The translations under genes and the position numbers were made by a program. From positions 1 to 64,000 of the forward strand of contig DXCU01000010.1 in assembly GCA_019115845.1 (NCBI GenBank): a stretch of DNA of 64,000 nt, in the 5' to 3' direction. Positions 766 to 57,491 of this stretch are shown here, piece by piece (position 1 is the first letter of the stretch; each line of letters starts with the position of its first letter). A model generated the notes under the pieces. It saw only the letters and a list, made by a program, of their open reading frames with translations. It ran no database searches and was not told the origin of the DNA. The stretch comes from Candidatus Rubneribacter avistercoris (GTDB taxonomy: Bacteria > Actinomycetota > Coriobacteriia > Coriobacteriales > Eggerthellaceae).

Positions 766-3700
766 CTACCTCTCGGCGCTCGAGCGCGGCTTTCTCCGCA
801 GAACGCGAATCGCCGCAGCGCACGCGGCCGCCGCAAAGGCAGCGAGCGCGCCAAGGATCGCTGCGAGCGAAGCCGACCCGTCGCCGGTAGAGGTCAACGT
901 TGAGCCGCCGTTGCCGAATGCGGAAGGCGGCGTGGGATTGTCTTGGGAAACCGAGGGCAGCCTCTCGGGAATCTTCTGGTCGATAGCCTGCAGCGTCACT
1001 CCCCCGTCCACGATGGCATAGCCCTCGTGCTCGGGGCCAAGGAGCGTGCCGTCCTCCTGCACGGAGAACGTGTAGGACCCCTCGATGAGCAGGTAGCCTT
1101 CCGGCGCGATCGTCTCCGCAACGGTGTACGACCGCCCGGCCGCAAGCTCGCCGACAAGGAGGATCCTGCCTTGGGCGTCTGTTTCGTAGGTGCGGACAGA
1201 CGGACCGTCCTCGCCAACGAACAGGCCGGTTATCTGGAACGTCGCGCCTTCGAGCGGCGCGCCCAGGGTGTTCGTTTTGAGCAGGGACGCCTGCACGGGC
1301 TCGTCGACGGCTTGGATGACCGCAACGCCGTCGGCGTCTGCGGAGACGGCGTACCGACCGCTGCCCCCGCGCCCGGCCGCAACTCCGTCCTGAGCGTCTT
1401 CCAGCAAGAACGTGCCGTCGGGACTCACCGTGATCACGGCCGATCCGGCCAGCTCGTAGCCGGCGGGGGCCCGCACCTCGGCCACCTCGTACGCCGAACC
1501 CGCCGCCAACAGCGCGGAGGGAAGGCTCGCCAGGCCGTCGGCCCCGGTGACCACCTCGACAGGTTCCGTGGAGCCGTCGGCGAAGGTACCGCCCTCGACG
1601 GGGGCCACCGTAAACGCAGCGCCTGCAAGCGGCTCGCCCTCGGAATCCGTCTTGGCGATGCGCGCTTCTATGGGCGCGTCGGCGGCGGCGATGGCCACGT
1701 TGCCATCAGGGGTGATGCGGAATCCGGGACTCCCGTCCGCAACCTCTTCGGCATCGGGCAGCGCCGCGATGGTGCCGTCGTCAGCCACCCTGAAGCCGAA
1801 CGAGCCTTCGATGAGCTTGTAGCCCGGCGCGGGCACCACCTCGGCCACCGTGTAGGACTCGCCGGCGACCAGCAGGGCCTCAAGGCGTGCAAGGCCCTGG
1901 TCGTCCGAGGTCAGAAGCTGTTCAGTGCTGCCGTCGGCGAACGCGCCCTCCACGGCGAACACGGCGCCCGCAAGCGGGGTTCCGTAGTCCGCAGAACTCA
2001 CTTTCTGCAGCCCCACGACCACCGGGACGTTGACGACCTGCACCGTGAACGCGTTGGCGCCGTCTTTGCGGTAGCCGTTGGGAACCGGCCCCTTTGCGAG
2101 GATAGCGCCGTCGTCGGCCACTTCGATGGACAGCGTGCCCTTTATGAGTTCGTAGCCGGCGGGAGCCCGCACCTCGACGATGCTATACGAGCCGCCGACC
2201 ACCAGCTGGCCCGCAAGCTCGGCCATGCCGTCGGAGTCGGTTTGCATCGTGACAGGATCCGTGGAACCGTTGGCGAAGGCGCTGCCGTCCGCAGGCGTCA
2301 CCTGGAACGTCGCGCCGGCAAGCGGGGTCTGCCCGTCCTCGGCCACCTTCGCTAGAGCAAGGCGCGTCTGCTGGTCGGCTGCCGTAAGCGTCACGCCGTC
2401 GCCAGCCACCTGGTAGCCGTCCGCGTGCGCCCCCATCTTGAGCGTGCCGTCGGGGTCCACCGTGAACGAGCACGTTCCGGCGATGAGCGAATAACCGGCG
2501 GGCGAGGCCGTTTCGGCCACCGCATACGTTTCGCCCACGATGAGGCCGGTGACCGCAGCCAGACCGTCGGTGTTAGTCGAAAGCGTTTTCACCGGCTCGG
2601 CGCTATCTGCGAACGAGCCTGTCACCTGGAACGTTGCGCCGGGAAGGGGCTTGTTGTCGGCGGCGTCCACCTTCTTGACGAACGCCTCCACCAGCTGGTC
2701 GGTCACCGTGACGGACGCCTGGGCGCCGTCAAGCGACCAACCATCGGGCGCCTCGCCCACCGTCGCCAGCGCGCCGTCGGCCTGCACCGTCACGCACAGC
2801 GTGCCGGACCGCACCTCGTAGCCGGAGGGCGCAGTTGTTTCGGCAATGTCATACTGGTCGCCCACGACCAGCTGGCCCGCCGGCAGCGCAGCGGTGCCGT
2901 CGGGGCCGGTCGTAAGCTCGCGCGCGGTGGTGGAGCCATCCGCGAACGCACTACCCTCGACGGGCGTCACGGCGAACACGGCTCCGGAGAGCGTCGCGAT
3001 GCCGTCGATGTTCGTCTTGCGCAAGGTCAGAGGCGTGGTGCTGGCGTTTTCCACAGTGCCGAGCGCCACCTCCCGCTCAACCGTGGTGCGGTCGATGGTG
3101 AACTCGTTGCTCGTCACCGCCGTGCCGCCCGTTTGGCCCACGTAGCCGTCGGCGGGCGTTGTCTCGACGAAACGGTACGTGCCCCACGCAAGGCCGGCCA
3201 CGCGCAGCGTGCCCTCATCGGCCGAGTCGCCTGCGCCGCGGGCGACCGTGTTGGAAGCCGTGCCGTGTTTTGCCGAGCCGTCCGTATCGAGAGCGGCTAC
3301 GTTGGAAGCCATGCTGGTCTCCGCCGAGTTGCCTGCGCTGCGGGTGGCTGCGTTGGAGGCCGCGTCGGTTTCCGCCGAGTTGCCTGCGTCGGGAGCAGCC
3401 GCATCGGAAGCCGTGCCGGTTTCCGCCGAGTCGCCTGCGCCGCGGGCGGCCATGTCGTAGGCTTTGCCCGTCTCCAGGCTGGTTGCGACGTCATTCCACG
3501 CGCCGTCGGCGTCCTTCTTTTGCAGCGAGAACACCACGCCGTTGAGCGGCGTGCCGTCATCGCTCGTCTTCGTGAGCGACGCGCTGCCGGTAAGCCGATT
3601 GTTGACCAGGCCGCCGGCGGCAATTTCGCCCTCGACCGTCGCGCTCAGTATCGTGCGGTCGCCAGCTTCTGCCAGGTTGAACGTCTTGCCATGGTCCTCG

Positions 3701-6700
3701 TTCTCAAGGACGAACGTCACCTTGAAGTTCTTGTCCACCTGGTAGCCTGTGTTCTCCACCTCGGTGAGCGTGTAGGTGCCTTTGCCGGAAAGGGCGAGCG
3801 TTAGTGTGCCGTTCTCGTCGGTTTTCTCCCGCGTGACAACCGCCGTGCCGCCGCTTGCGGGCGTGTAGGAAAGCTCGAACACCGCGCCTTCGATGCCCTC
3901 TTTCGACGTGCCGTCCAGCTTGGGCAGCGTGACCGTGGCAGTGAACAGGTCGTTCAGCAAGGTTTCGCCCTGATCGCCGCCGTTGTCGCACACGGTCACG
4001 GCGTTGTTCGTGCCGTGGTTGCCCTCCGCGTCGATGACGAAGGGGAACTTCGCCTCATTGCCGTTGGGCAGGTGGGCGTTGTCTGCAGTGCCCTTTTCCA
4101 GCAGGTAGTAGCTACCCGCCTGCAAGCCGTCTTCGAGCGTGCTGCGGCGATTGTCGGTTTTGCCGACGATCTCGATGTCGCTTTGAGAGGAGGAGAAGCG
4201 ACCGTCTTTGTCGGTGGTCAGGCTCTGCGCCATCAGTTCGTCGGCTCCGTCCGTGCCCGTGCCCTCGCGGTACAGGTCGAAAGTCGCGCCCGCTATCGCG
4301 TTTGCGGCGCCCGCGTTGCCGGCAAGCGCCTTTGCGAACGTGAAGTATCCTCGGAACACCGGATCGATCATCGTCACGGTGGCAAGATCGCCTTTGGTGG
4401 ACACAGCACCGTCCGTCGAGGATGTGAGGGCGCCGCTTGCGGAGAGGGTCACGCGCACGTCCTGCGCCCGCACGTGGTCGGCGGGAACGGCGCCCGTCTC
4501 ACGCACGAGGTAGTTGCCGGCCTTCAACCCGACGATGCAGCCCGCCGCCTCGTCTTTCATGAGGGTGAACTGCGAAATTTTTGCGTTGCCGCTGCCCGTT
4601 CCGTCTGGCCAGACCTCGTCGGTTTTGACACCGCTCGGGTTCGACCAGGTGGTCACGGTTCCGTTCGCGTCGCGCTGCCATACGGCGTAGGTTGCGGCTC
4701 CATCGGTGGACATCACAGCGAGTTCGATGCCGTTCAGTGTCTCACCGACGCCCCAGTCGTTTTTCTTGTCGAGCGTGAAGCGCGTGGCGACGTTGGTGAT
4801 GGTGCCGTCTTGCCCCGCCGCCGAGCTGCCGTTGCCGTACGTGGGATAGAACCCGCCGACGCTGCCTGCGACCTCTTTGACGCGATAGCTGTACTTTTTG
4901 CCATCGCCGTCGAATTCGGGCAGGCCGCTGTACGACCAGGCCCAAGTGCCGTTGCTGTTGGCGGTCCATGTCGGCTGCGGCATATCGTCGATATCAGGTT
5001 TCGCCGACTCCCATGTTTTGCCATCCGTGCTGCGCTCGATGGTCATCCGGGGACGGTCATTTTCGCCAAACTTGGGCGCGAAACCCGTGCCGTAATCGGT
5101 CCACGCTTTCGTGCCGCTTAGACTGGTGGTGTAAAGCGAGTTCGTGAACGTCTGCGAAGTGCCGTCGGTGCCAATGTCAACAGTCGAGCCGACCACGGCT
5201 TCTTCGGCGTTCTTCACCTCGGTACCGTTCACCACCTGGTAGCCGCCGGGGACGATCTCCACGGCGCGATAGAGGTAGTCGTTGCCGTCAGCATCCTTCG
5301 CGGGGAGGTTCTCGAACGTGACGGTTTGCTCGTTGACATCCGGGGCACCGGTGATGATGGCGAGGGTTGTCTCGTCGCCGACCCACTCCCACGTCTGTTT
5401 ATTGTCGTTGGAACGCTGGAGCCGGTACTCCACCTTCCAAAGCGAGTTGTTGTGCTCGTCGGTCGTCTTGTCGCGCAGGCCCCACTTGTTGCTCTCATCG
5501 TTCCAAGCTTTCGTCACCTTCAAGAAGGTGGCATCAAGCGTGTTGGTGATGGACGTGGTGCTGGTCATCGCCTTTGATGGATCGTCCACATCGCCTGTCC
5601 ATGTCGTGGTTTGCTTGCCGTCGTAGGAGGCGGTGGTGTGGTAGGTCACCTCATTGCCCGAGTCTTCGATGAACGACGAGGCGACTTCCACGTCGCCGAC
5701 CTTCGTCTCGATCACGCGATAGCGCACCTCGTAGACCGTAGAATTTGTGCCCTTGACCTGCATAGGCACGCTGCTCCACGTGCAACGCCAGTTGTTGCTC
5801 TCGTTCAACGTCTGCTCGATGGCGGGGAACCCGCCGGGCAGCTCCGCGATGCCCATGCCCTTGAACGCCTCATCGGCGCTCTGCCACTTGCTGTAGGAAG
5901 TATCTGCGTCGCCCTTCTTCTTGTACTGCGCTTGCAGCTTCACGGTGACGCTCTGGGGGCGCAGACCCCATTCATCGTCGCCGTCGTTTTCCCAGTTCTT
6001 GGTGGCGGTCACGGAACCTTTGAGGGCGTTTTTCAGCGCGGCTATCGTACCATGGTGCGTGCCGTCGGCCCCGGCGGTCGCCCCTCCCTTGCCGCTGGCC
6101 GAGCCGGTCACAACGCGGTAGGAGGTTTCCCCGCTGGGCAGCGTCTCTTTCACCGTGTACGTCCAGGCGCTGCCGTCGGGCGCCCACTGCTCAAGCCCGG
6201 TGATGGAGTACTCCCAGGTGCTGTCGGTGGGGTCGATCTCCGTCCAAGTCAGATATCCCTCGCCAGTGGAGCTGGTTCCCTGCAGAACGACGTCCTCCTC
6301 CTGCCCGCTCGCGGACTCCCGCGAAAGCGAGAGGTCTATGCTCGCAGGACGCGTGCCGAATGCGTTGCCGTAGTCGTTCCACTCCTTGGTTCCCTTAAGC
6401 GCGAGCTTCTCAGCGTCATACGCATTCGCGAACGTCACGTCAACCGTGTTGTTATCCGCAGCTTCAACCGAACCCGACACTGGGCCGCCCGCAAGTCCTG
6501 CATTCCCAAGCTCAAGATCGCCCAGGCCGACGCTCGTCGTGTAGCCGTTGATGCTCTTTTCCTCCACGTGGTACTGCCACAGCTGCCCGTTGGGCGCGTA
6601 GATGTCCAGGTCCTCGAACGTGTACGAGTCCTCACCAGCCGTAAACTCGTCAGCCTTGATAACGCCCGTCGCCACGCGCTCCGCCTCGCTCAACGAGCCG

Positions 6701-9700
6701 TTGTGCGTTTCGTACTGCCGGTACAGCACGAACTCGACATCCGGGTAGTGGTCACCCGCCGCGCGCCCGTCGAGCAGCTTCTTCACCGTCAGCTTGCCCT
6801 TGTCGGCGTCGTAGACGTTGTTGATGAAGAACGAGCCGGTGTTGCCGTGGCGGATGGTGAAGACCTTGTTGCTGTTGTTGCTGTCGTCGTCTTCGCTCCC
6901 ATCCTGCGAGTACTGCGAGAAGTCCACATCCCCCACTTCGTCCACGTCGATGTAGCCCGGCGTGCCCAGCAGCCCGACCATCACCTCGCGGGCGCGGTAC
7001 TCGTAGAGGTTGCCGTTCTCGTCGTACAGGGGCAGCGCGTCGCCGGTCGAATCCTCGGCGGTGTTGTCGCCCGTATGCTCGATGCGATAGGAGTACTGGT
7101 TGTTCCCGGCAGGCGTCAGCTGGGACATCCACGCTACGGCCCCGTTGCCAACGGGCACGAGCGAATCGCCCTCCCACTTCACGCGCAGCGCGGGCCACGA
7201 CGCTTCATCGCTCGCCAGCTTCTGCTGCAAAAACACCGTGATCTTCGGCAAGTCGTCCGCCGGGAACGACCCGGGCAGGTTGGTCCACAGCTTCGTGCCG
7301 TTGGCAACCACGTTGCCTGAAAGCGCATTGACGAACGTGCCGCCGGAGCGCAGGGCGTAATCGGTGCCCGCCGCCGTGTCGATGTCGGCGACGGCCTCGC
7401 CCGTCTTCACCTTGATGACGGCGGGGTCGCTGTCCTCCACGACCCCCATGCGGTCATCGGCGAACGTTACGTCGCCGTAGCCCAGGCTGGCGCCGTCGTT
7501 CATGAACTCTTCCACCGCGTAGTAGGTTATCTTGTCGCCCTGGCCGTCGTATTTGGGCAGCCCGCTGATGGTGCAGGTTTGCGAGTAATGCGAAGCCGCC
7601 TGCGAGGACGGAGTCCCGGCAGCCGCGATGTCGCCGTCCGGGCCCTCGCCTGCCTCCCGGTTCTCATCCGCCTCCCAGAGGTAGTGGATGTAGCCTTCAA
7701 CCGCCTTCGGCTTGTTGCCGGTTTCGGCGCTCACCTGGTACAGCGTGAGCGCGATGTCGGGACGCTGCTGCAGGTCCTCGTTCACGTAGACGTCCTTCCA
7801 CTCCTTGTGGAAGGTGGCGCTGGTGGAGCCCACGCGCTTGTTGGTCACCGTGTAAGTCTGCGTGTCGTGGAAGTGGCGGCCCCCCACCTTGTACTCGCCA
7901 ACCGAGACGGAGCTTGCGTAATCGCCGGAGGCGCCAACGAAGCGCTCCTTAACGGTGTAGTGCACCACCTCGCCGTCGGATTCGATGCCCTTGTACTTGG
8001 GCAGCCCGAAGAAGCCGTAGGTGGATTCCTTCTGCGCAGGGTCGATGTTGATCACGAGCGCTTTGCCGTCGTCCTCGACGGTTGCCACAAGCGGTTTGTT
8101 CGCATCGTCGTACAGCGGGATGTTGTTGCCGCCGTCCAGCTTCGCGTACGCCTGGCCGTCAGCATCGACGGAGAACACCGCCTTCGGATCGTCTACCGTC
8201 AGCTCAAGCCGCGCTTTCGGACGCTCGCCCTCGGAAGCGTCGCCGTCCAACCACTTCTTCTCCACCGTGAGGTCCACCAAGCCCAGCCGGCGGTTGTTCA
8301 CCGTGAACGTCTGCTTGCCGAAGGGACCGTTCTGGTCGGGGTGGTACGTGACCTCGTACACGTGGTTGTCGGTGGCAACGCGCTCACGATCGGGGTTGGT
8401 CCACCCTTCGTTGACCCAGCCCTCGTTCCCAAGCTCTGCGCTCTCGGCCTCGGTTTTGAGGTACACGGGGTATTTGGTCTGGCCGTCGAGGGATTCCAGG
8501 CGCGTCTCCTCCACGACGATGTCAGCCGTGGTCAGGCCATTCACCGGAACGGTGAACTCCAGGAACCAGCCGTTGGCCTCGGAAAGCGCCAGACCCTCGA
8601 AGATGACATCGCCCTCCTGGTACTTGAGCGTTCCATCGATTGTCGAGTACAGGTCGTGCTTCGCGCGCACGTCGATGAAGCAGGCCAGGCGGTGGGCCGA
8701 GTCCTCGCCGTCCGTCCAGTCCTTCATGAGGTGGAAATCGGTGCCCTCGCCGGGCCCGTAGCTGTTGGTGATGGTGGTGAGGTGCTGCTCGGCATTGTAA
8801 CTGCGCTGGCTGTCCCAACCGGCGGGCTCCACCTCCACCACGCGGTACAGGTAGCGCGCGCCCGTCTCCGAGTACAGCGGAAGCCCCGTGATCTCAAGAT
8901 AATAGGGGTCCGTCTCCTGCGCGCTCGGCACGGCGTCGCCGGGATCGCCCTCCAAGCTGTCATAGAAGCCGCTTGCCTTGTCGTCTGCCTGGCCGTCCAG
9001 CATGAACTCGCCCACCAGCGTGGTGCCCTGGTACACGCGCATGGTCACCTCGTCCTCGCGCGCCGGGTCGGGCTGCGAGGGAAGCCACTGGTCATCGTTG
9101 GGCGCGGGCTGCTGCCACAGTTTCTGCACGTTCTCGTAGGTGGTGTTGTCGAACGAGTTGACGATGGCGCCGGTGCCGGGATCAACCTGCGACGTGAACT
9201 CCACCTGCACGGGTTCGTCGCCGGACCCTTCGAGCGACTCCAGGCTCAGCGTGAACGTGGCGGTGCCGTCGCTGTTGCGCGTGAAGTTCGTTTCGGCGCC
9301 GTTTTGCGTGACGTTCGTCTCGACCCAGCGATACTCCAGCTCGTAGCCGTCCTCGTCGTATTTGGGATACGACCCCGTTATCTCCTGCGTGAGCATTTCG
9401 GCATTGAAGCCGCTCAGGTTTTGCGTGACGGGGGCGCCTTGGGAGTCCTTCGCGTCCGTCCACTCGCCGTTCGTCCCTACGCGGCGCTGCTGCAGCGTGA
9501 ACGTGCAGGTCACGTCTTCCAGCTGGTTTTGGAACGCCGCCACCGACCACGTCTTGACCTGCGAAACCGGCTTGGTGCCCGTCAGATGGTTCTCCACGGT
9601 GCCGCCGTTGTAGGTGAGGCGATCGGTGTCGGGGCGCGTCCACAGGGCGCCCACCGCCGCGCTGGGGTCGCGGTTCTGGTCGGTGTAGAAAACCTGCGTC

Positions 9701-12041
9701 TTCCCATCCGCGTCGTAGTAATTGGGCGCGGTGTCGTCGAGCAGCATCTCATAGTCCGGCAGGGTCGTGTCCTCGCGCATGCCGTACACGAAGGGGTAGC
9801 CGTCCGAATCGTACTTGTCCAGTTCAAGGTTGGGGTATTGCTCCCTGAGCAGATCTCCGAGGTTCACGGTGCCGTCGTCGGCCGCATCGTCGGGATCGAC
9901 GGTGACGGTGATGAAGCTGCCGTCTGCCGCGCGCACCTGCGAGGCGTTGGCGATGCTGCCGGGCGTGGCGCCGTCCGAGTAGCGCCACAGCGAGAACGTC
10001 ACGTTGCCGCGCTTGCTCTGGTTGTCGCCGTCGCTCCATTGTTTTGTGGCGCCGAACGTGGTGGTGCCCACGTGCGTGAACACGATGGTTCCGCCCGGAT
10101 AGGCGTAATCCACCACCGTGCCGTGGTTGGCGGACGCCGAGTTGTCGTAGGTGGCTTGGTAGTAGTCGTCATCCTCGTCATAGCCCTGGTAGATCAGACG
10201 GTACTCGATAGGCCTGCCGTCCACCGTGTACTGGGGCAGATCGGCGAACAAGGCCACGGTGTTGGGGTCTTTGTCGAACTCCCAGTCCCAACCGAACGCG
10301 CCGCCGAAGCTCTCCTGCTTTTCGAGCGAAGCGGAGTCGGTGCTCTCCTGCATGAGGTCTTCAAGGGCGTATGCGCCCTTCACCTGGTTGTCCACCACCA
10401 CTTCAACGCGGATGAGGTTGTTTTCGTCCCCCAGGCCAACAAGGGATTCGTCACCCACCTTGCCCGTGATGGTGAACCGCACCTCCGTCAGAAGCTGGAG
10501 GTTCTGCGTGCCCTCCGGGGACGCGGGGTCGCGGCGGTAATTTTCGTAGTCGGTGGCGTCGGCAAGCGACCATTCCACCGTGTAGGAGGTTTTCGAAGAC
10601 TCGTAGACAGGCTCGCCCGTGCCCGGCTCGTACAGCAGGTTGCCATCATCGTCCCGCGCTTGCGACCAGGTGGTTTGTACCACCTCTGTAGGCAGGCCGG
10701 TCGCCATGGAGAGGTAGGTTCCCACAGCCGTTTGCTCCGTGGACACGGAGGGAGCGTCTGTCATACCAAGGTAGAGGCGCACGTTCTCGGCGGTGGCCGG
10801 GATGCCTTCCGCCGGCGTGCCGTCCGTCGCGCCGATGAGGCCGCCCTCCCCCACGGACGCGACAGCTCCCTTCTGGTCGCGGATCGTGAAAGTCAGGGTC
10901 GGTTTCATGTCTCCGGGCTGGGGGCGGCTTGCGTTGTTGTTGTCGGCCCAGTTGGTGGTGAGGGTCTTGCTCTCGGTTGCAGTGCCGGGAACCCGGGTGG
11001 GATCGGGCGCGGCGGCGCGGGAGGCGAGGGCGTTCGCCGGGGCCGCGGCGGCCGGGTCGTCTTCGGCTTCGTCGTCGGCTTCGCCACCGGCCTCGTCGCC
11101 GGCCTCAGGATCGCCCTCCGGCTCTCCCCACAAGGCCAAAAGCTCGGTCGCAGAGGGAATTTTCAGCTCAACCGTGCGCTGCTCGCCGTCCTCGGCGGTC
11201 TGCACGATCCATTCGATCAGAGAGCCTTCGTCGGTTGCCAGAGCCGCGTCCACCGCCACGTCAAGCGACAGATGCGCGGAGAGCGCCCCGTCCGCAGCAA
11301 GCTCCACGCGCAGCACGCCGTCCTTGACGGTTCCAAAGGCCGCCTCGGCTGCGGGGTCGTCCGCCGAGGCTTCGGGGTCGTCAGTCGAGGTCGCAGGGTC
11401 GCCAGCCGAGGTAGCGGAGTCGTCCGTCGTGGCTGCGAGATCATCAGTTGGGGTTGCGGAGCTGTCCGCCGAGGCTTCGGGGTCGTCCGCCGAAGTCGCG
11501 GGCACGGTGCCCTCGCCGCCTGCGTACGAGACGCCTTCGGGCAGCGCGACGGAAAACCAGTCGCCCGCAAGCACGGCGTCGTCTTCTTCGGTGGGAGCAA
11601 GCTCGAACGAGATGTCGAGCGAAGCGGGAATGGAAGTAGGAAGCCCGTCGTCGGGAGCGTCTGCGGGGCGCTGCGCCAAGACGGAGAGGGAGGCATCAAG
11701 GACGAGGTCGTCAAGGGAGGCCGACCAGTCCTTCGGGTCGCGCGGCTCGGGGTTCGCCGCGCCGTCGTCCGAGGGCGTTTCGCCTGTCGGGGCATCGCCA
11801 AATAGCCACCCCCCCTCTGCAAGCGAATCGCCGGACGACTCGGGGTCATTGGTCAGAGAATTAGCTGCCCCCCCCCGTTAGGGAAATCGGGGGTCTTGTC
11901 GCCGGAGGTTTCGGGGGTGTCGGAATCGGCATAGGCAGCCAAGGAAAGCGGCATCATCGTTGCCACCAACAAACCGGCCATCACAACGCTGAAAGCGCGC
12001 CGACCAAGCGCGCGTATGCGTGCGCACCTCGCCTTTCTCAT
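766..12041 (-). CDS. Giant Cna_B/SpaA-repeat surface adhesin, frameshifted at a poly-G tract
   Basis: The start is the ATG at 12041, with AGGGAGG six bases upstream; a signal peptide follows (basic start, hydrophobic core, cleavage near AAYA-DS). After about 55 codons the frame hits G9 (11868-11876) and stops in this sequence. With G10 the frame runs on to 766, giving 3758 residues. The long frame then shows an Asp/Ala/Thr repeat, many Cna_B-type domains (about residues 660-2430, each with a K..W start and ending in a ..N-type isopeptide strand), and SpaA-like prealbumin domains with GATF and APAGYE motifs, six in close tandem at about 3000-3700. It ends with a sorting signal (non-canonical LTSTGDG, hydrophobic segment, RRK tail). 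Probable wall-anchored adhesin or stalk. The frameshift looks like an OFF state of a phase-variable gene; sequencing error in the homopolymer is the alternative. Confidence 0.88.
3219..3465 (-). repeat. 51-bp in-frame tandem repeats inside the giant adhesin
   Basis: About four to five copies of a 51-bp (17-residue) unit coding for peptides such as NAATRSAGNSAETSMAS. The array is inserted in a SpaA-like domain between the strand ending DMAARGAG and the one starting LRVAGLAWGTYRF. The copies differ by several residues, so the array is old or under weak selection. Confidence 0.8.
11340..11510 (-). repeat. 24-bp-type Asp/Ala/Thr repeats near the adhesin N-terminus
   Basis: Imperfect units of about eight codons (TSADDPEA, SADSSATP, TDDLAATT, DDSATSAG and so on) form a linker about 60 to 120 residues after the poly-G tract. 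Length changes in whole units would keep the frame. Confidence 0.65.
11868..11876 (-). repeat. Poly-G tract (G9), predicted phase-variation switch
   Basis: Nine C on the plus strand, read as AAC-GGG-GGG-GGG-C in the gene. As sequenced, translation ends four codons later (QLIL then TGA). Ten G restores 3758 codons; eight G gives a stop two codons after the tract. The context matches the tract at 55323-55332. Confidence 0.8.
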
Positions 12042-12253: not shown

Positions 12254-12263
12254 CCCCCCCCCC
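12254..12263. repeat. C10 homopolymer upstream of the giant adhesin promoter
   Basis: Ten C on the plus strand (ten G on the coding strand of the adhesin), about 100 bases upstream of the predicted -10. It is not in a gene. Slippage here would change upstream spacing only. Confidence 0.6.
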
Positions 12264-48835: not shown

Positions 48836-48844
48836 CCCCCCCCC
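48836..48844. repeat. C9 homopolymer upstream of the LysR-type gene
   Basis: Nine C in the 293-bp gap between rsgA and the LysR-type gene, about 68 bp upstream of the candidate -35. It is outside genes. The rest of the gap holds only the rsgA-end hairpin. Confidence 0.6.
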
Positions 48845-52566: not shown

Positions 52567-55368
52567 CTATCGGCAGGCGCGCCCGCTTCGACGCAGCCAG
52601 ACGGCGCAGCCCAGGCCCAGCACCAGCACCCCGGCCGCGCCGGCGGCATCGACTCCTGCGGCACCTGTGCGCGCCAACAGCACCGGCGCCGGCTCCTCCA
52701 CCCGGTTCTCGAACGCGGCGGGGGCGTCCGCGCCGTCGTAGGACACCTCGGCCGAGAGGGAGCCGTCGGCGCGGGCGACCACCGTGACGGTCGCCGCGCG
52801 CTCGGAGGTGTCGTAGACCACGCCGTCCTTGGCGAAGCCGCCCGCGGCCAGCTGGTCGGCGGTGGCCTGGTCGTAGCGCACGCCGTCGGCGTTGCAGGCG
52901 TCGCCGGGCACCTGCTCGCGCACGGTGTAGGCGTAAGTGCCCGCCTGCGCGTAGCTCAAAACGCCGAAGTCCACGGGCGCGGCGCCCTCCTCGGAGGCGT
53001 CCGCCGCGCCGTTGCTCGCCTTTGCGACGACGGCGCCCGCGGCGTCCAGCAGCTCGAAGGTGAACTGCCCCTCGGACAGCTCGCCGCCCTCGAAGCGCTT
53101 GGACGCCTCGATCCGCGCCTCGCCCGACGCGGCGTACTTGTTGGAGAAGCTCGCCTGCGCCCGCTTTCCGGCCTCGACGGCGCCCGTCGCGCCCTCAAAG
53201 CCCGTCAGCGTCCAGCCGGCAGGCACGTCGACCTCGGCCACCTCGTAAGCGCATCCGTCGTCCAGGCCCTCAACGACCGCGGTCTGGCCGCCCTTGAGCA
53301 CAACGACGCCGTTCGCGGCGGTCCGCTGCTCGGCGCCCACCGTGTAGGGGCCGCTGTAAGGCTTGCCGTCCACCGTCAGCTCGAAGCGGAACTCCTGCTC
53401 GCCCGACGGCCCGCCGGCCATCGCGCCGGAAACGACCTTGGAGATTGCCAGCGAGCCGGGACCGGCCTCCCACTGCGCGTACAGGTTGACCTCGGCCGGC
53501 AGCAGCCCCGAGAGGTAGTCCTGCGCGAACGTGGCCCGGTCGGCGTAAGATGTGCCGGAGCCGTCGGGCTCGGTGTTCCAGCCCAGGAAGGAGTGGCCCT
53601 CCCACGTGAAGCCCAGGGCGTCCAGGACGGCGTCGCCGTCCTCCCAGTCGACCGTCTGCACCGGCATGGCGCCGCCCGCGGCGCCGTTGGCGTGGAAGAC
53701 GAAGTCCACGAGCGTGTCCCACACGTAGGTGCCCGCGGGCGCCGCCGCGCCGGGGTAGGCCTCCGCGAAGCCGCCGGGCTGGTGCGACGTGCCCTTCTGC
53801 TGCTCGCCGCCCTCCAGCCGTATCCACGCCTGCTTGACCGTGGCCGGCGTGGGGAGCGTCGTGAGCACCTGGCCGGTCGTCTGGGCGTAGGCGCCCTTGA
53901 AGGAGAAGTCGTCCCCCAGCGTGATCATCCGCAGCGCCGGCATCTGACGGAACATGTTCGACATGTCCGTGGCGCTCGAGGTGTCGAAGGTGCCGATGTC
54001 AAGCGACGGCAGCGAGGAGCAGCGATCGAACATGTCCTTCATGCTGGTGACCTTCGCCGTGTCGAAGTTCGACACGTCAAGAGACGTCAGGCCCGAGCAT
54101 CCGGCGAACATGCCGCCCATGTTCGTGACGTTCGCCGTGTTGAAGGTTGACAGGTCAAGGTCCGTCAGGGAGCTGCACTCGGAGAACATGCAGTACATCG
54201 TGGTGACGCTTGAGGTGTCGAACATCGACACGTCAAGGTTTTGCAGCTTCGGGCAGTTGTGGAACATGCTCGTCATGTTCACGACCTTCGACGTGTCGAA
54301 GCTCGACAGGTCGATGGACTCCAAAGACGTGCAGTTGTAGAACACGTAGGCCATGTTCGTGGCGTTCGAGGTGTCGAACGTCGTCACGTCGATGGTGGTG
54401 AGGGACTTGCAGCCGCTGAACATGCTGGACATGTTGGAGATGTTCGCCGTGCTGAAGTGCGAGAGGTCCAAAGAGCCAAGGGACTCGCACTGCTCGAACA
54501 TGCCGGACGCGTTCCACACCCGCTCGGAGTCGAACGACGTTATGTTCAAGGAGGTGAGGGCCTTGCAGCCGGCGAACATCTTGTCCATGCGCGTGACGTT
54601 CTCGGTGTTGAAGAACGACAGGTCAAGGGACGTGAGGGAAGAGCAGCCGTTGAACAGGTAGCCCATGTTCGCTATGTTCGTGGTGTCGAAATTCGGCCCG
54701 AACGTGATGGAGTCCGAAGTCAGGCTGGAGCAGCCGGAGAGCAGCTTCGATATGTCCGTGACGTTGCCGAGCGAGAGGTTGGTGAAATCGACGCTGGTCA
54801 TGTTGCTGTGCGTCGAGAACATCGTGGAGATGGACACCGCGGCCGTCGTGCCCGGGGCGAAAGACGCGCTCTTCACGTCGCTCGCGAAGGCGGCCCAGGG
54901 GGAGTTGCACTCCTTGTCGCCTGCAATCGACACTCCCGTGCCGCTGATCAGGAGGTGGCCGGCGTCGTCAAGCTCCCATTTCCAGGTGCCCATGTCGCCG
55001 CTTTGCACCACGGCCCTGGCGGAAGCGGCGGCAGGCGCGCTGCCTGCGGCGGGCGTCAGGAGCGCCGAGGGCGCTGCGGGATTCTCGTCGGTCGCGTCCG
55101 CTGCGTTCGCCGCGTCAGCTGCGGCGGGCGCGTCGGTTGCGGCGGGCGCGTCGGCTGCGGCGGGCGCGTCGGCCGTATCCGCCGCATTCGCCGCATTCGC
55201 CGCGTCGGCCGCGTTCGCTGCGTTCGCGGCGTCCTCCTGCGCCAAAGCGACGAAGACTTGCGTCGGGAGCAGCGCGGTCGAAATGAGCAGCGCCGTGAAC
55301 AGCGCTAATGCTCGTTTATACGCCCCCCCCCCGTTTCGTTTTCGCATCACGGACCTCAGTGCCTCCAT
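52567..55368 (-). CDS. BspA-like leucine-rich surface protein, phase-variable
   Basis: 933 residues from the ATG at 55368, with AAGGAGG upstream. A G10 tract codes residues NGGGA at 12-16, in frame here (ON), just before the signal peptide (to about residue 44). An Ala/Asp/Asn-rich repeat follows (about 45-105). About twelve DUF285/BspA-type repeats (about 175-470; pattern MFSGCKSLTTIDVTTFDTSN) and an InlB-like repeat (about 560-635, VDFVFHANGAAGG to YAQWEAG) follow. Then come two Spy0128-like pilin domains with a YAQAGTYAYTVRE E-box. The C-terminus is a non-canonical LARTGAAGV sorting signal, hydrophobic helix and RRSGR. Likely adhesin or host-binding protein, wall-anchored. Confidence 0.9.
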   Translation of the reverse strand: MEALRSVMRKRNGGGAYKRALALFTALLISTALLPTQVFVALAQEDAANAANAADAANAANAADTADAPAAADAPAATDAPAAADAANAADATDENPAAPSALLTPAAGSAPAAASARAVVQSGDMGTWKWELDDAGHLLISGTGVSIAGDKECNSPWAAFASDVKSASFAPGTTAAVSISTMFSTHSNMTSVDFTNLSLGNVTDISKLLSGCSSLTSDSITFGPNFDTTNIANMGYLFNGCSSLTSLDLSFFNTENVTRMDKMFAGCKALTSLNITSFDSERVWNASGMFEQCESLGSLDLSHFSTANISNMSSMFSGCKSLTTIDVTTFDTSNATNMAYVFYNCTSLESIDLSSFDTSKVVNMTSMFHNCPKLQNLDVSMFDTSSVTTMYCMFSECSSLTDLDLSTFNTANVTNMGGMFAGCSGLTSLDVSNFDTAKVTSMKDMFDRCSSLPSLDIGTFDTSSATDMSNMFRQMPALRMITLGDDFSFKGAYAQTTGQVLTTLPTPATVKQAWIRLEGGEQQKGTSHQPGGFAEAYPGAAAPAGTYVWDTLVDFVFHANGAAGGAMPVQTVDWEDGDAVLDALGFTWEGHSFLGWNTEPDGSGTSYADRATFAQDYLSGLLPAEVNLYAQWEAGPGSLAISKVVSGAMAGGPSGEQEFRFELTVDGKPYSGPYTVGAEQRTAANGVVVLKGGQTAVVEGLDDGCAYEVAEVDVPAGWTLTGFEGATGAVEAGKRAQASFSNKYAASGEARIEASKRFEGGELSEGQFTFELLDAAGAVVAKASNGAADASEEGAAPVDFGVLSYAQAGTYAYTVREQVPGDACNADGVRYDQATADQLAAGGFAKDGVVYDTSERAATVTVVARADGSLSAEVSYDGADAPAAFENRVEEPAPVLLARTGAAGVDAAGAAGVLVLGLGCAVWLRRSGRACR
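55085..55245 (-). repeat. Ala/Asp/Asn codon repeats in the BspA-like protein
   Basis: Units such as ANAADAANAANAAD and DAPAAADAPAATD from 9- and 18-bp repeats (for example GCGGCGGGCGCGTCGG) lie just after the signal peptide. They keep the frame when their number changes. Confidence 0.75.
55323..55332 (-). repeat. Poly-G tract (G10) near the BspA-like start codon
   Basis: Ten C on the plus strand read as AAC-GGG-GGG-GGG-GCG in the gene, keeping the frame. Nine or eleven G would stop the protein early. The codon context AAC-G(n)-GC matches the giant adhesin tract. Confidence 0.8.
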
Positions 55369-55470
55369 GGGCAGCCTCCTTCTGTGCCGTCATCATGGGT
55401 GCTCGCCGCGAAGCGGACGGCGGGCGCGAGCGCGCCTGCCGAAGACCGGCACCCGGTTGGTAATGCGACC

Positions 55471-55476
55471 ATTGTA
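55471..55476 (-). promoter_or_regulatory. Possible -10 of the BspA-like gene
   Basis: TACAAT on the minus strand, about 100 bases upstream of the start codon; no clear -35. The leader between has GC-rich inverted repeats (about 55410-55440). Confidence 0.35.
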
Positions 55477-55547
55477 GGGGCTTTCATGTTTCGCACACGG
55501 GGGCGGCGCTTCTGGTTCAAATACGAGTTGATGCCCGCCGTCGCGCC

Positions 55548-57491
55548 TTACCCTTGACGCCAGCGATTGAAGGCTGCGAACAGCTCCTGCGGGCGGGGCA
55601 TGGCAAGGCCGCACGTCGGGCAGCCATGGGCGTCGAGCGCGGCCCAACCCTCGCTGCGGACCATATCGAACAGGCGCGCGACCGCCTCCTGCGGGGAAAG
55701 GCTGCCCGCCAGCAGGCCCTTCTCCTGAGCTAGGCGCACCATCTGAGCGAGCGCGGCCGTCTGCTCGGCGTCCACCAGCTGTTCGACCAACCGCAGGTCG
55801 GCAGACCCATCGCCCACCCGCATGCCATCGCGCCCGAGCAGCTTCACCTTGACGCGGTCATCCCGCCCGTGCCGCTCGGCGCCGCCGCGCATACCGCGAC
55901 CGCGCGCCCCGCGCCCGCCGCCTTGCGCACCGCGCCTGCCGTCGTGCGCACCGCGCCTGCCGCCCGCGCCCCGCGCGCCGCCATCGCGCCCGCCCGGGCC
56001 GCGTTCCGCGCTCATCCCGCGGTCGCTTCCGACCTCGCTGCGGTCCGCACCCTGGCCGCCGCCGCTTCCAACCGCTCCGCGCTCATCGCTCATCGTGCCG
56101 CCGCGCATCGGCACGACCTTCCCTATCGTCCGTCGCGCTTCCGGCAGCTTGAACGGCGGCGTCCCGGAGCCAAGCGGCGACGCCCACTCGCTGCACGCGG
56201 CGCGCACGCGCTCCGTTATGTCGTGCGCTTCGTAGCGCTCCATCTGCACCACCGTGTCCGCCGTGAAGAAAAACGCCCCCGAGCTGCCCGCCACCAGCAC
56301 GGTGCTCACGCCCGCCGTCTCGTACAGGTCGCGCACGCGTTCGACGAACGGCGTGATGGGCTCGTCTTGGCGGCGCACCACCGCCTCCATCAGCTCGTCA
56401 CGCACCATGAAGTTGGTGGCCGAGGTGTCCTCGTCAACCAAAAACGCGCGACAGCCGGCCTCCACCGCTTCCACCGCGCCCGCCGCCTGGGACGTGCTGC
56501 CGCTCGCATCGGTCGTGGAGAAGCGGCGGGTGTCGCGCCCGTCGGGCAGGTCGTTGATGAACAGCGAGATGTCCACGTCGCGCACCGACCGCCCGTCTTC
56601 GGCCCGCAGCTTCACGGCGGTGTCGTCGGTGACGACCAGTTCCCGCCCGTCGCCGAGCACGTGGTTGTACACGCCTTCCTGCAAAGCTTTGAGCAGGGTC
56701 GATTTGCCGTGATAGCCCCCGCCCACAATGAGCGTGACGCCGCGGCGCACGGCCATGCCCGTCGTGGGGCCGCGATGCGGCAAATCAAGCGTCACCCGCA
56801 AGGACTCCGGAGAGGAGAACGGGCGCGCGCCCCGCATCGGTCGGCTGGACACGCCGCTTTCGCGCGGCAGCACCGCCCCGTCGGCCACGAAGGCCACCAG
56901 GTCGCGGCGCTCAAGCTCCTTGCGCGCGGCCCGCTGATCGTCCGCCAACTCCGTTGCGGCGCGCACGGCGGCGCGGGCCTCTTCGTTGTAGGAGCCGTAG
57001 TGCAGCGCGGCCCGCACGCAGCGCGGCACGAAGTCGAACAGCATCTTCTCCAGCGCCGAGGCGTCGACGGTGCGGCCGTGCGCGGGAAAGCCCGCCTCAA
57101 ACCGCACGACGATGCCGAAAGCCCCCGCCTCGCACGCCGAGCGCGCCAGCACCTCGGGTCCCGGGCGGCTCGTGGCCAGAAGGCCGCTTTTGCCCGAACC
57201 GCCCACCTTGCAGCTGAACCGAGCCAGCTCGCGCGAGAAGCGCCGCACCAGATGGTCTTCGAACGCGATGCGGCGATGAGGCTCGTCGTGCAGATCGGGC
57301 GGGAACGCAGCCCGGTCGGCCGCCACGCGCACGGACAGCCCCGAGGGTGCGGCGAACGGATCGCCCTGCACGTGGTCGATGGACAGTTCGAAGCCGTCGA
57401 AGGCGTAGCGGCCGCGCAGCCCCTTGTACGCCGGGTACCCCCGACGGTCGATGCCGCGCAGTCGCGCGCGCAGGTCGTTCGCTGTCTGCAT
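55548..57491 (-). CDS. ABC-class ATPase with a Gly/Arg-rich insert
   Basis: 647 residues from the ATG at 57491, with AAGGAGGGCAGC upstream. It follows the pattern of ABC_ATPase (PF09818)-type proteins: RGYPAYKGLRGRY near the start, a P-loop in VGGGYHGKSTLLKALQ (about residue 260), and Walker B-like FLVDEDTSATNFM (about 345). ABC-class ATPases of this type are thought to be cytoplasmic and nucleic-acid related, but the role is unknown. A Gly/Arg-rich insert (about residues 478-545, with repeated RGG/GRG) interrupts it, possibly for RNA binding. No operon partner is seen. Confidence 0.85.
   Translation of the reverse strand: MQTANDLRARLRGIDRRGYPAYKGLRGRYAFDGFELSIDHVQGDPFAAPSGLSVRVAADRAAFPPDLHDEPHRRIAFEDHLVRRFSRELARFSCKVGGSGKSGLLATSRPGPEVLARSACEAGAFGIVVRFEAGFPAHGRTVDASALEKMLFDFVPRCVRAALHYGSYNEEARAAVRAATELADDQRAARKELERRDLVAFVADGAVLPRESGVSSRPMRGARPFSSPESLRVTLDLPHRGPTTGMAVRRGVTLIVGGGYHGKSTLLKALQEGVYNHVLGDGRELVVTDDTAVKLRAEDGRSVRDVDISLFINDLPDGRDTRRFSTTDASGSTSQAAGAVEAVEAGCRAFLVDEDTSATNFMVRDELMEAVVRRQDEPITPFVERVRDLYETAGVSTVLVAGSSGAFFFTADTVVQMERYEAHDITERVRAACSEWASPLGSGTPPFKLPEARRTIGKVVPMRGGTMSDERGAVGSGGGQGADRSEVGSDRGMSAERGPGGRDGGARGAGGRRGAHDGRRGAQGGGRGARGRGMRGGAERHGRDDRVKVKLLGRDGMRVGDGSADLRLVEQLVDAEQTAALAQMVRLAQEKGLLAGSLSPQEAVARLFDMVRSEGWAALDAHGCPTCGLAMPRPQELFAAFNRWRQG

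Follow-up and report, generated by a model that had tools for sequence, protein, structure and literature searches.

A G10 tract in the signal peptide of a BspA-like surface protein is a probable phase-variation switch in Candidatus Rubneribacter avistercoris

Results

Our analysis of a 64,000-nucleotide stretch of the Candidatus Rubneribacter avistercoris genome (contig DXCU01000010.1, positions 1 to 64,000; hereafter, the window) points to a homopolymeric G tract that very probably serves as a translational phase-variation switch, operating by slipped-strand mispairing and assembled in its ON state; slippage in living cells is what we infer from the sequence. The tract lies in a minus-strand open reading frame (ORF) for a 933-aa BspA-like, sortase-type surface protein (52567-55368), which is in frame at the assembled tract length. 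The ATG at 55368 is preceded, after a 6 nt spacer, by an AAGGAGG ribosome-binding site (55375-55381, minus strand). A search of 55300-55620 turned up neither a sigma-70-like promoter nor a terminator.

The original prediction placed ten Gs at codons 13-16, and a C10 run indeed stands on the plus strand at exactly 55323-55332, with the tract starting at codon 13 of the minus-strand ORF (AAC GGG GGG GGG GCG). This is a repeat near the start of an ORF whose changes in length switch the reading frame. When tract lengths of 8-12 were simulated, the frame was open only at 10, and translation ended after 16, 20, 17, and 21 codons at lengths 8, 9, 11, and 12, respectively; in general, a stop is reached within 16-21 codons unless the tract length is congruent to 10 modulo 3. 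The predicted exact fit at ten was therefore confirmed, as was the loss of the open frame upon a change of one base in either direction. Both off-frames are closed at most six codons past the G10, a situation found at 0.7% of 7,449 sampled coding positions. Among the glycine codons of the Rubneribacter genome, the share of GGG is only 18%, and this low share, like the early closure of both off-frames, speaks against a chance run. Downstream of the tract, the signal-peptide sequence contains no ATG, GTG, or TTG up to the end of its hydrophobic core, and hence no easy restart that would preserve export; translation restart 3' of the G10 was considered and rejected on these grounds. A second G tract 5' of the gene, of the kind seen at another surface gene in the window and at surface genes of two congeners (G001 and G002, described below), was not found within 600 nt.

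The encoded protein begins with MEALRSVMRKRN-GGG-AYKRALALFTALLISTALLPTQVFVALA-Q..., placing the tract between a basic n-region and a hydrophobic core. As we read it, the signal peptide (55240-55368, minus strand) is split by the tract into the basic MEALRSVMRKRN, GGG, and a hydrophobic core ending in VALA. The tract had been described as lying before the signal peptide; its position is corrected here to the inside of the signal peptide, in the basic n-region. The rest of the protein contains, in minus-strand order, a BspA/DUF285 leucine-rich repeat (LRR) region at about residues 183-515 (53824-54822; Pfam DUF285, PF03382, 2.6e-77, and BspA-type LRR_5, PF13306, 2.2e-11), a DUF7601 domain at residues 638-745 (53134-53457; 2.4e-15), and an FctA/Spy0128-like isopeptide stalk domain at residues 753-890 (52699-53112; 4.1e-19). 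With its BspA-type/DUF285 LRR domain, the protein belongs to the BspA-like family, and the predicted identity as a BspA-like surface protein holds. The minus-strand segment 52570-52677 encodes a sortase-type tail in which a LARTG motif is followed by a hydrophobic stretch and the Arg-rich end RRSGRACR. The signal peptide, the LARTG motif, and the hydrophobic tail suggest that the protein is secreted and wall-anchored, presumably by a sortase.

A comparison of the 933-aa protein with genome contigs returned only distant relatives in other phyla. No recognisable orthologue was found in the two congeners, in which the best matches were weak, and among the matches listed no gene of this type adjoined the neighbouring ABC-type ATPase in either of them. 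The G10 tract of this gene is therefore not traceable across species. The same genome encodes a paralogue on contig C52 (L102), whose open frame of 3,636 aa includes LRRs and recurring stalk domains; no G tract lies close to its start.

The window contains a second intragenic G tract in a giant surface gene on the minus strand (766-12041), which starts at an ATG at 12041 with an AGGGAGG ribosome-binding site, an N-terminus reading MRKARCARIRALGRRAFSVVMAGLLVATMMPLSLAAYA..., and a signal peptide. This gene is broken by a G9 tract at 11868-11876 (minus strand), 55 codons in (codon 56) and right behind the signal peptide: the 12041 frame stops a few codons past the G9, and another frame is then open for 3,696 codons, so that the two halves do not share a frame and the gene is OFF as assembled. 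The downstream half encodes SpaA and Cna_B domains and ends in an LTSTG tail. That 3,696 codons have stayed open behind the frame break suggests that the gene is often ON rather than dead or decaying, and it is likely a second phase-variable surface locus. A further, non-coding G10 tract lies about 210 nt 5' of the start (12254-12263, minus strand) and is mirrored by upstream tracts of the surface genes in G001 and G002. Elsewhere in the window, a G9 run at 48836-48844 stands behind a GGAG and an ATG and leads only to a 27-codon frame; it is probably not a gene switch.

We then considered G/C runs throughout the genome. Exact runs of length 7 and 8 number 35 and 13, while lengths 9, 10, 11, 12, and 13 occur 24, 22, 8, 1, and 1 times among the matches listed (all but three of 104 nonamer matches). 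For comparison, 360 kb of sampled sequence contains 2082, 550, 77, and 6 runs of 4, 5, 6, and 7, respectively. Simple decay with length cannot produce a second hump, and the thinning to 13 runs at length 8 followed by 24 and 22 at lengths 9 and 10 therefore indicates a separate class of tracts, which are longer than composition predicts and of a length prone to slippage. The majority of the genome's tracts, however, fall between genes or immediately beside them, which shows that G runs also persist where no frame is switched and counts against reading them as switches.

By our own gene calls, intragenic tracts in this genome are found in both frame states. In-frame examples include a LuxR-type regulator (L096), a LysR regulator (L099), a TupA-like protein (L088), a GNAT protein (L094), a large protein without a Pfam match (L081), and an M6-peptidase-like exported protein with the tract right behind its signal peptide (L097). 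Out-of-frame tracts occur in two LuxR-type regulators (L083 and L119), a PucR regulator (L077), and a gene of unknown function (L076). The three LuxR-type proteins have membrane or long N-terminal parts and carry intragenic tracts of G9-G10, in frame only in L096; in L083 the frame break falls between the membrane part and the helix-turn-helix. These regulators may themselves be switched. In the PucR-type regulator, on contig C15, two frames are split exactly at a G9 tract. Just 5' of a NusG/LoaP-like gene (MWYVVQTVGGQEKQ...) on contig C63 (L104, 8832) lies a G10, possibly in the leader of that gene. Finally, the end of contig C30 (L087) and the start of contig C24 (L080) have nearly the same sequence around a G tract, with one difference in the flank and with tract lengths of G11 in one contig and G10 in the other; these ends represent either two copies or a population heterogeneity that broke the assembly.

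Surface genes of relatives provide further cases of tracts near the start; the relatives in G001, G002, and G005 were chosen from protein matches, and the tract near the G005 pair was known beforehand, and we therefore attach no P value to this comparison. G005, a single-contig genome, contains tandem DUF285 genes with the near-identical starts MATSSSTFIRAEKHD-GGG and MVPSSSIFVRAEKHD-GGG. The first has a G10 and is in frame; the second has a G9 and is out of frame, with 1,511 codons open behind the tract and an LAPTG tail. In G002, two genes carry tracts right behind the signal peptide, a G10 in frame (L123) and a G9 out of frame (L124, tail LVRTG). In G001, a gene of 2,473 codons with FctA and VWA domains and an LVKTG tail (L127) has an out-of-frame G10 in its n-region. 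A second G10 stands some 260-460 nt 5' of the first in each of L123, L124, and L127. Tracts near the start are not present in every such gene: among the surface genes examined in eight genomes of other genera (G004, G006, G007, G012, G014, G019, G023, and G029), only one (G029c) had one. In the intergenic space between two genes of G005 (L142, contig C1, about 225276-225390), five G tracts of 9 to 33 bases lie within about 110 bases.

A pattern scan for GGAG-N4-11-ATG-N12-42-G9 matched 41 of 138 family genomes, a weak enrichment taken by itself, since a reversed-pattern control likewise matched many genomes. Tract and frame states were read at 30 loci returned by the scan, several of which have a hydrophobic signal directly behind the tract followed by a long open frame. 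These signal-behind-tract loci are in frame in L196 and L215 and out of frame in L200, L209, L211, L214, L216, and L217, a mixture that would be expected if tracts slipped freely. L214 (G105) encodes a Tat-signal molybdopterin oxidoreductase with a G9 immediately ahead of its twin-arginine motif; the ATG upstream is in a different frame. L205, a GGDEF protein, is in frame, but its start may be later. L196 from G005, with an in-frame G10, and L216 from a different genus (G109), with an out-of-frame G9, encode products that share 50% identity along about 500 residues, and in both the tract falls at one and the same point of the signal peptide, indicating that the position has been kept and the length has not. 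Taking the G005 tandem pair, the G002 pair, L196/L216, and the 11868 gene together, ON and OFF lengths both occur among homologous or analogous loci, though this does not extend to strict orthologues of the 933-aa gene. The on/off switch implied by the original prediction is thus supported by the frame argument and by in-frame and out-of-frame surface genes here and in relatives, and switching itself is presumed from these.

Lack of MutS and MutL lets homopolymer slips persist. Searches with the MutS1 model (TIGR01070) gave no match in nine of nine genomes, comprising that of Ca. R. avistercoris and eight relatives, while the control matched 11 of 14 well-known genomes. A bona fide MutL was also not found in these searches, with TIGR00585 giving only short matches below the cut-off. 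NucS was considered as a substitute repair enzyme and rejected, having only marginal partial matches.

Discussion

We propose that the G10 behaves as a hypermutable simple-sequence repeat to which replication slippage would add or from which it would drop a G. At ten Gs, or any length equal to ten modulo 3, ribosomes would pass from the basic start through the tract and on into the hydrophobic core, and the adhesin-like product of 933 aa would be exported and then anchored (ON). With any other number of Gs, translation would be over within 16-21 codons and nothing would reach the surface (OFF). Within one clone, some cells would then be expected to display the protein and others to lack it. 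The benefit of such switching may be adhesion, or evasion of immunity or phage. The genome would contain further loci of this kind besides the G10, and its apparent lack of MutS and MutL would leave slips uncorrected.

Three other accounts of the tract have to be weighed. Homopolymers of at least nine bases tend to make RNA polymerase and the ribosome slip, and slippage during transcription or frameshifting during translation of the G run might set a fixed fraction of full-length product while the DNA length stays stable. Such slippage would provide some protein from the out-of-frame 11868 gene, L124, L127, and L216, but the 933-aa gene, the frame of which is open with the assembled G10, would only lose product by it, and both the two-humped spectrum of runs in the DNA and the homologues with different DNA lengths point to change at the DNA level. 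We consider this account improbable, and it is compatible with DNA-level phase variation rather than exclusive of it. Slightly less probable still is an invariant run without any role in switching, an incidental G-rich stretch under weak constraint at the protein level, with its frame held by selection. Signal-peptide n-regions tolerate residues freely and intergenic G runs are common in the Rubneribacter genome, as this account would have it; a G10, however, is far above the decay of run lengths, relatives have surface genes with out-of-frame tracts at the corresponding site, and behind the G10 both off-frames are closed at once.

The third account concerns the assembly, which comprises 104 contigs and is probably built from short reads, leaving room for a one-base error in tract length. 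The true length might then not be ten, and the in-frame state might be coincidental or imposed by the read consensus. Several tracts do lie at contig ends, Illumina sequencing has trouble with G tracts (PMC9187656), and G-tract lengths in databases can differ from those in the population (PMC9187656). Against an artefact, the tract stands at a conserved position in many assemblies, including the single-contig G005, and an error of one base would alter the ON or OFF call and not the presence of a switch; we regard this as the least probable of the three. A translational switch by slipped-strand mispairing at the G10 is therefore the reading we prefer.

A broader and distinctly more tentative idea, which we hold as possible but somewhat doubtful, is that signal-peptide poly-G tracts form a family-wide switchboard of the secretome. 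Export of adhesins and of unrelated enzymes (such as the L214 oxidoreductase) would be switched at random in genomes without MutS/MutL repair, and at some of the genes a second tract 200-460 nt upstream might tune transcription.

If phase variation operates as proposed, single-colony cultures would be mixtures in their surface make-up, and the state of the tract may influence what is claimed for a strain regarding its adhesion, its recognition by the immune system, or its sensitivity to phage. Poly-G contingency loci, which are familiar from mucosal pathogens and from bifidobacterial pili, would then reach into another family of actinobacteria, where the seeming lack of mismatch repair would offer a simple reason for tract instability.

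The poly-G/C contingency loci of Campylobacter and Neisseria are found in Gram-negative mucosal bacteria and, to our knowledge, are not tied to the n-region of signal peptides. Like the tracts proposed here, they form a genome-wide set that switches surface-related genes (e.g. PMC6321876, PMC5953494). Candidatus Mycoplasma girerdii offers a parallel in the protein family, as its BspA-like LRR surface proteins are switched between intact and truncated forms by repeat length at several loci per genome; it differs in belonging to the Mollicutes, in using dinucleotide repeats rather than poly-G, and in that the variation was shown in metagenomic reads (PMC5476646). Closer in taxonomy, the capsule of Eggerthella lenta, probably of the same family as Ca. 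R. avistercoris, also undergoes reversible surface variation, but by a megabase inversion of DNA and not by homopolymer slippage; the paper describes the inversion, treats slipped-strand mispairing only in general terms, and does not mention homopolymers or poly-G (PMC13174815). We found no report of homopolymer phase variation in the Eggerthellaceae in the open-licence literature, and as far as that literature shows, the mechanism is well known elsewhere and its proposed occurrence in this family would be new.

The nearest counterparts are the pilus G tracts of Bifidobacterium breve UCC2003, for which deep sequencing revealed mixed lengths and the productive length was enriched in mice (PMC9187656). 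The B. breve loci are pilin operons rather than a gene for a BspA-type LRR protein, their tract lies between a Sec-signal ORF and an LPXTG ORF and not inside the signal peptide, and switching was measured there, whereas here we infer it. In bbr_0113 and bbr_1889, as in the 933-aa gene, an actinobacterial gut commensal encodes a sortase-type surface protein in which a G tract in the first coding sequence (about 11-12 in B. breve) links the export signal with the remainder of the protein at some lengths only, and in both cases tracts recur, across the genus in B. breve (PMC9187656).
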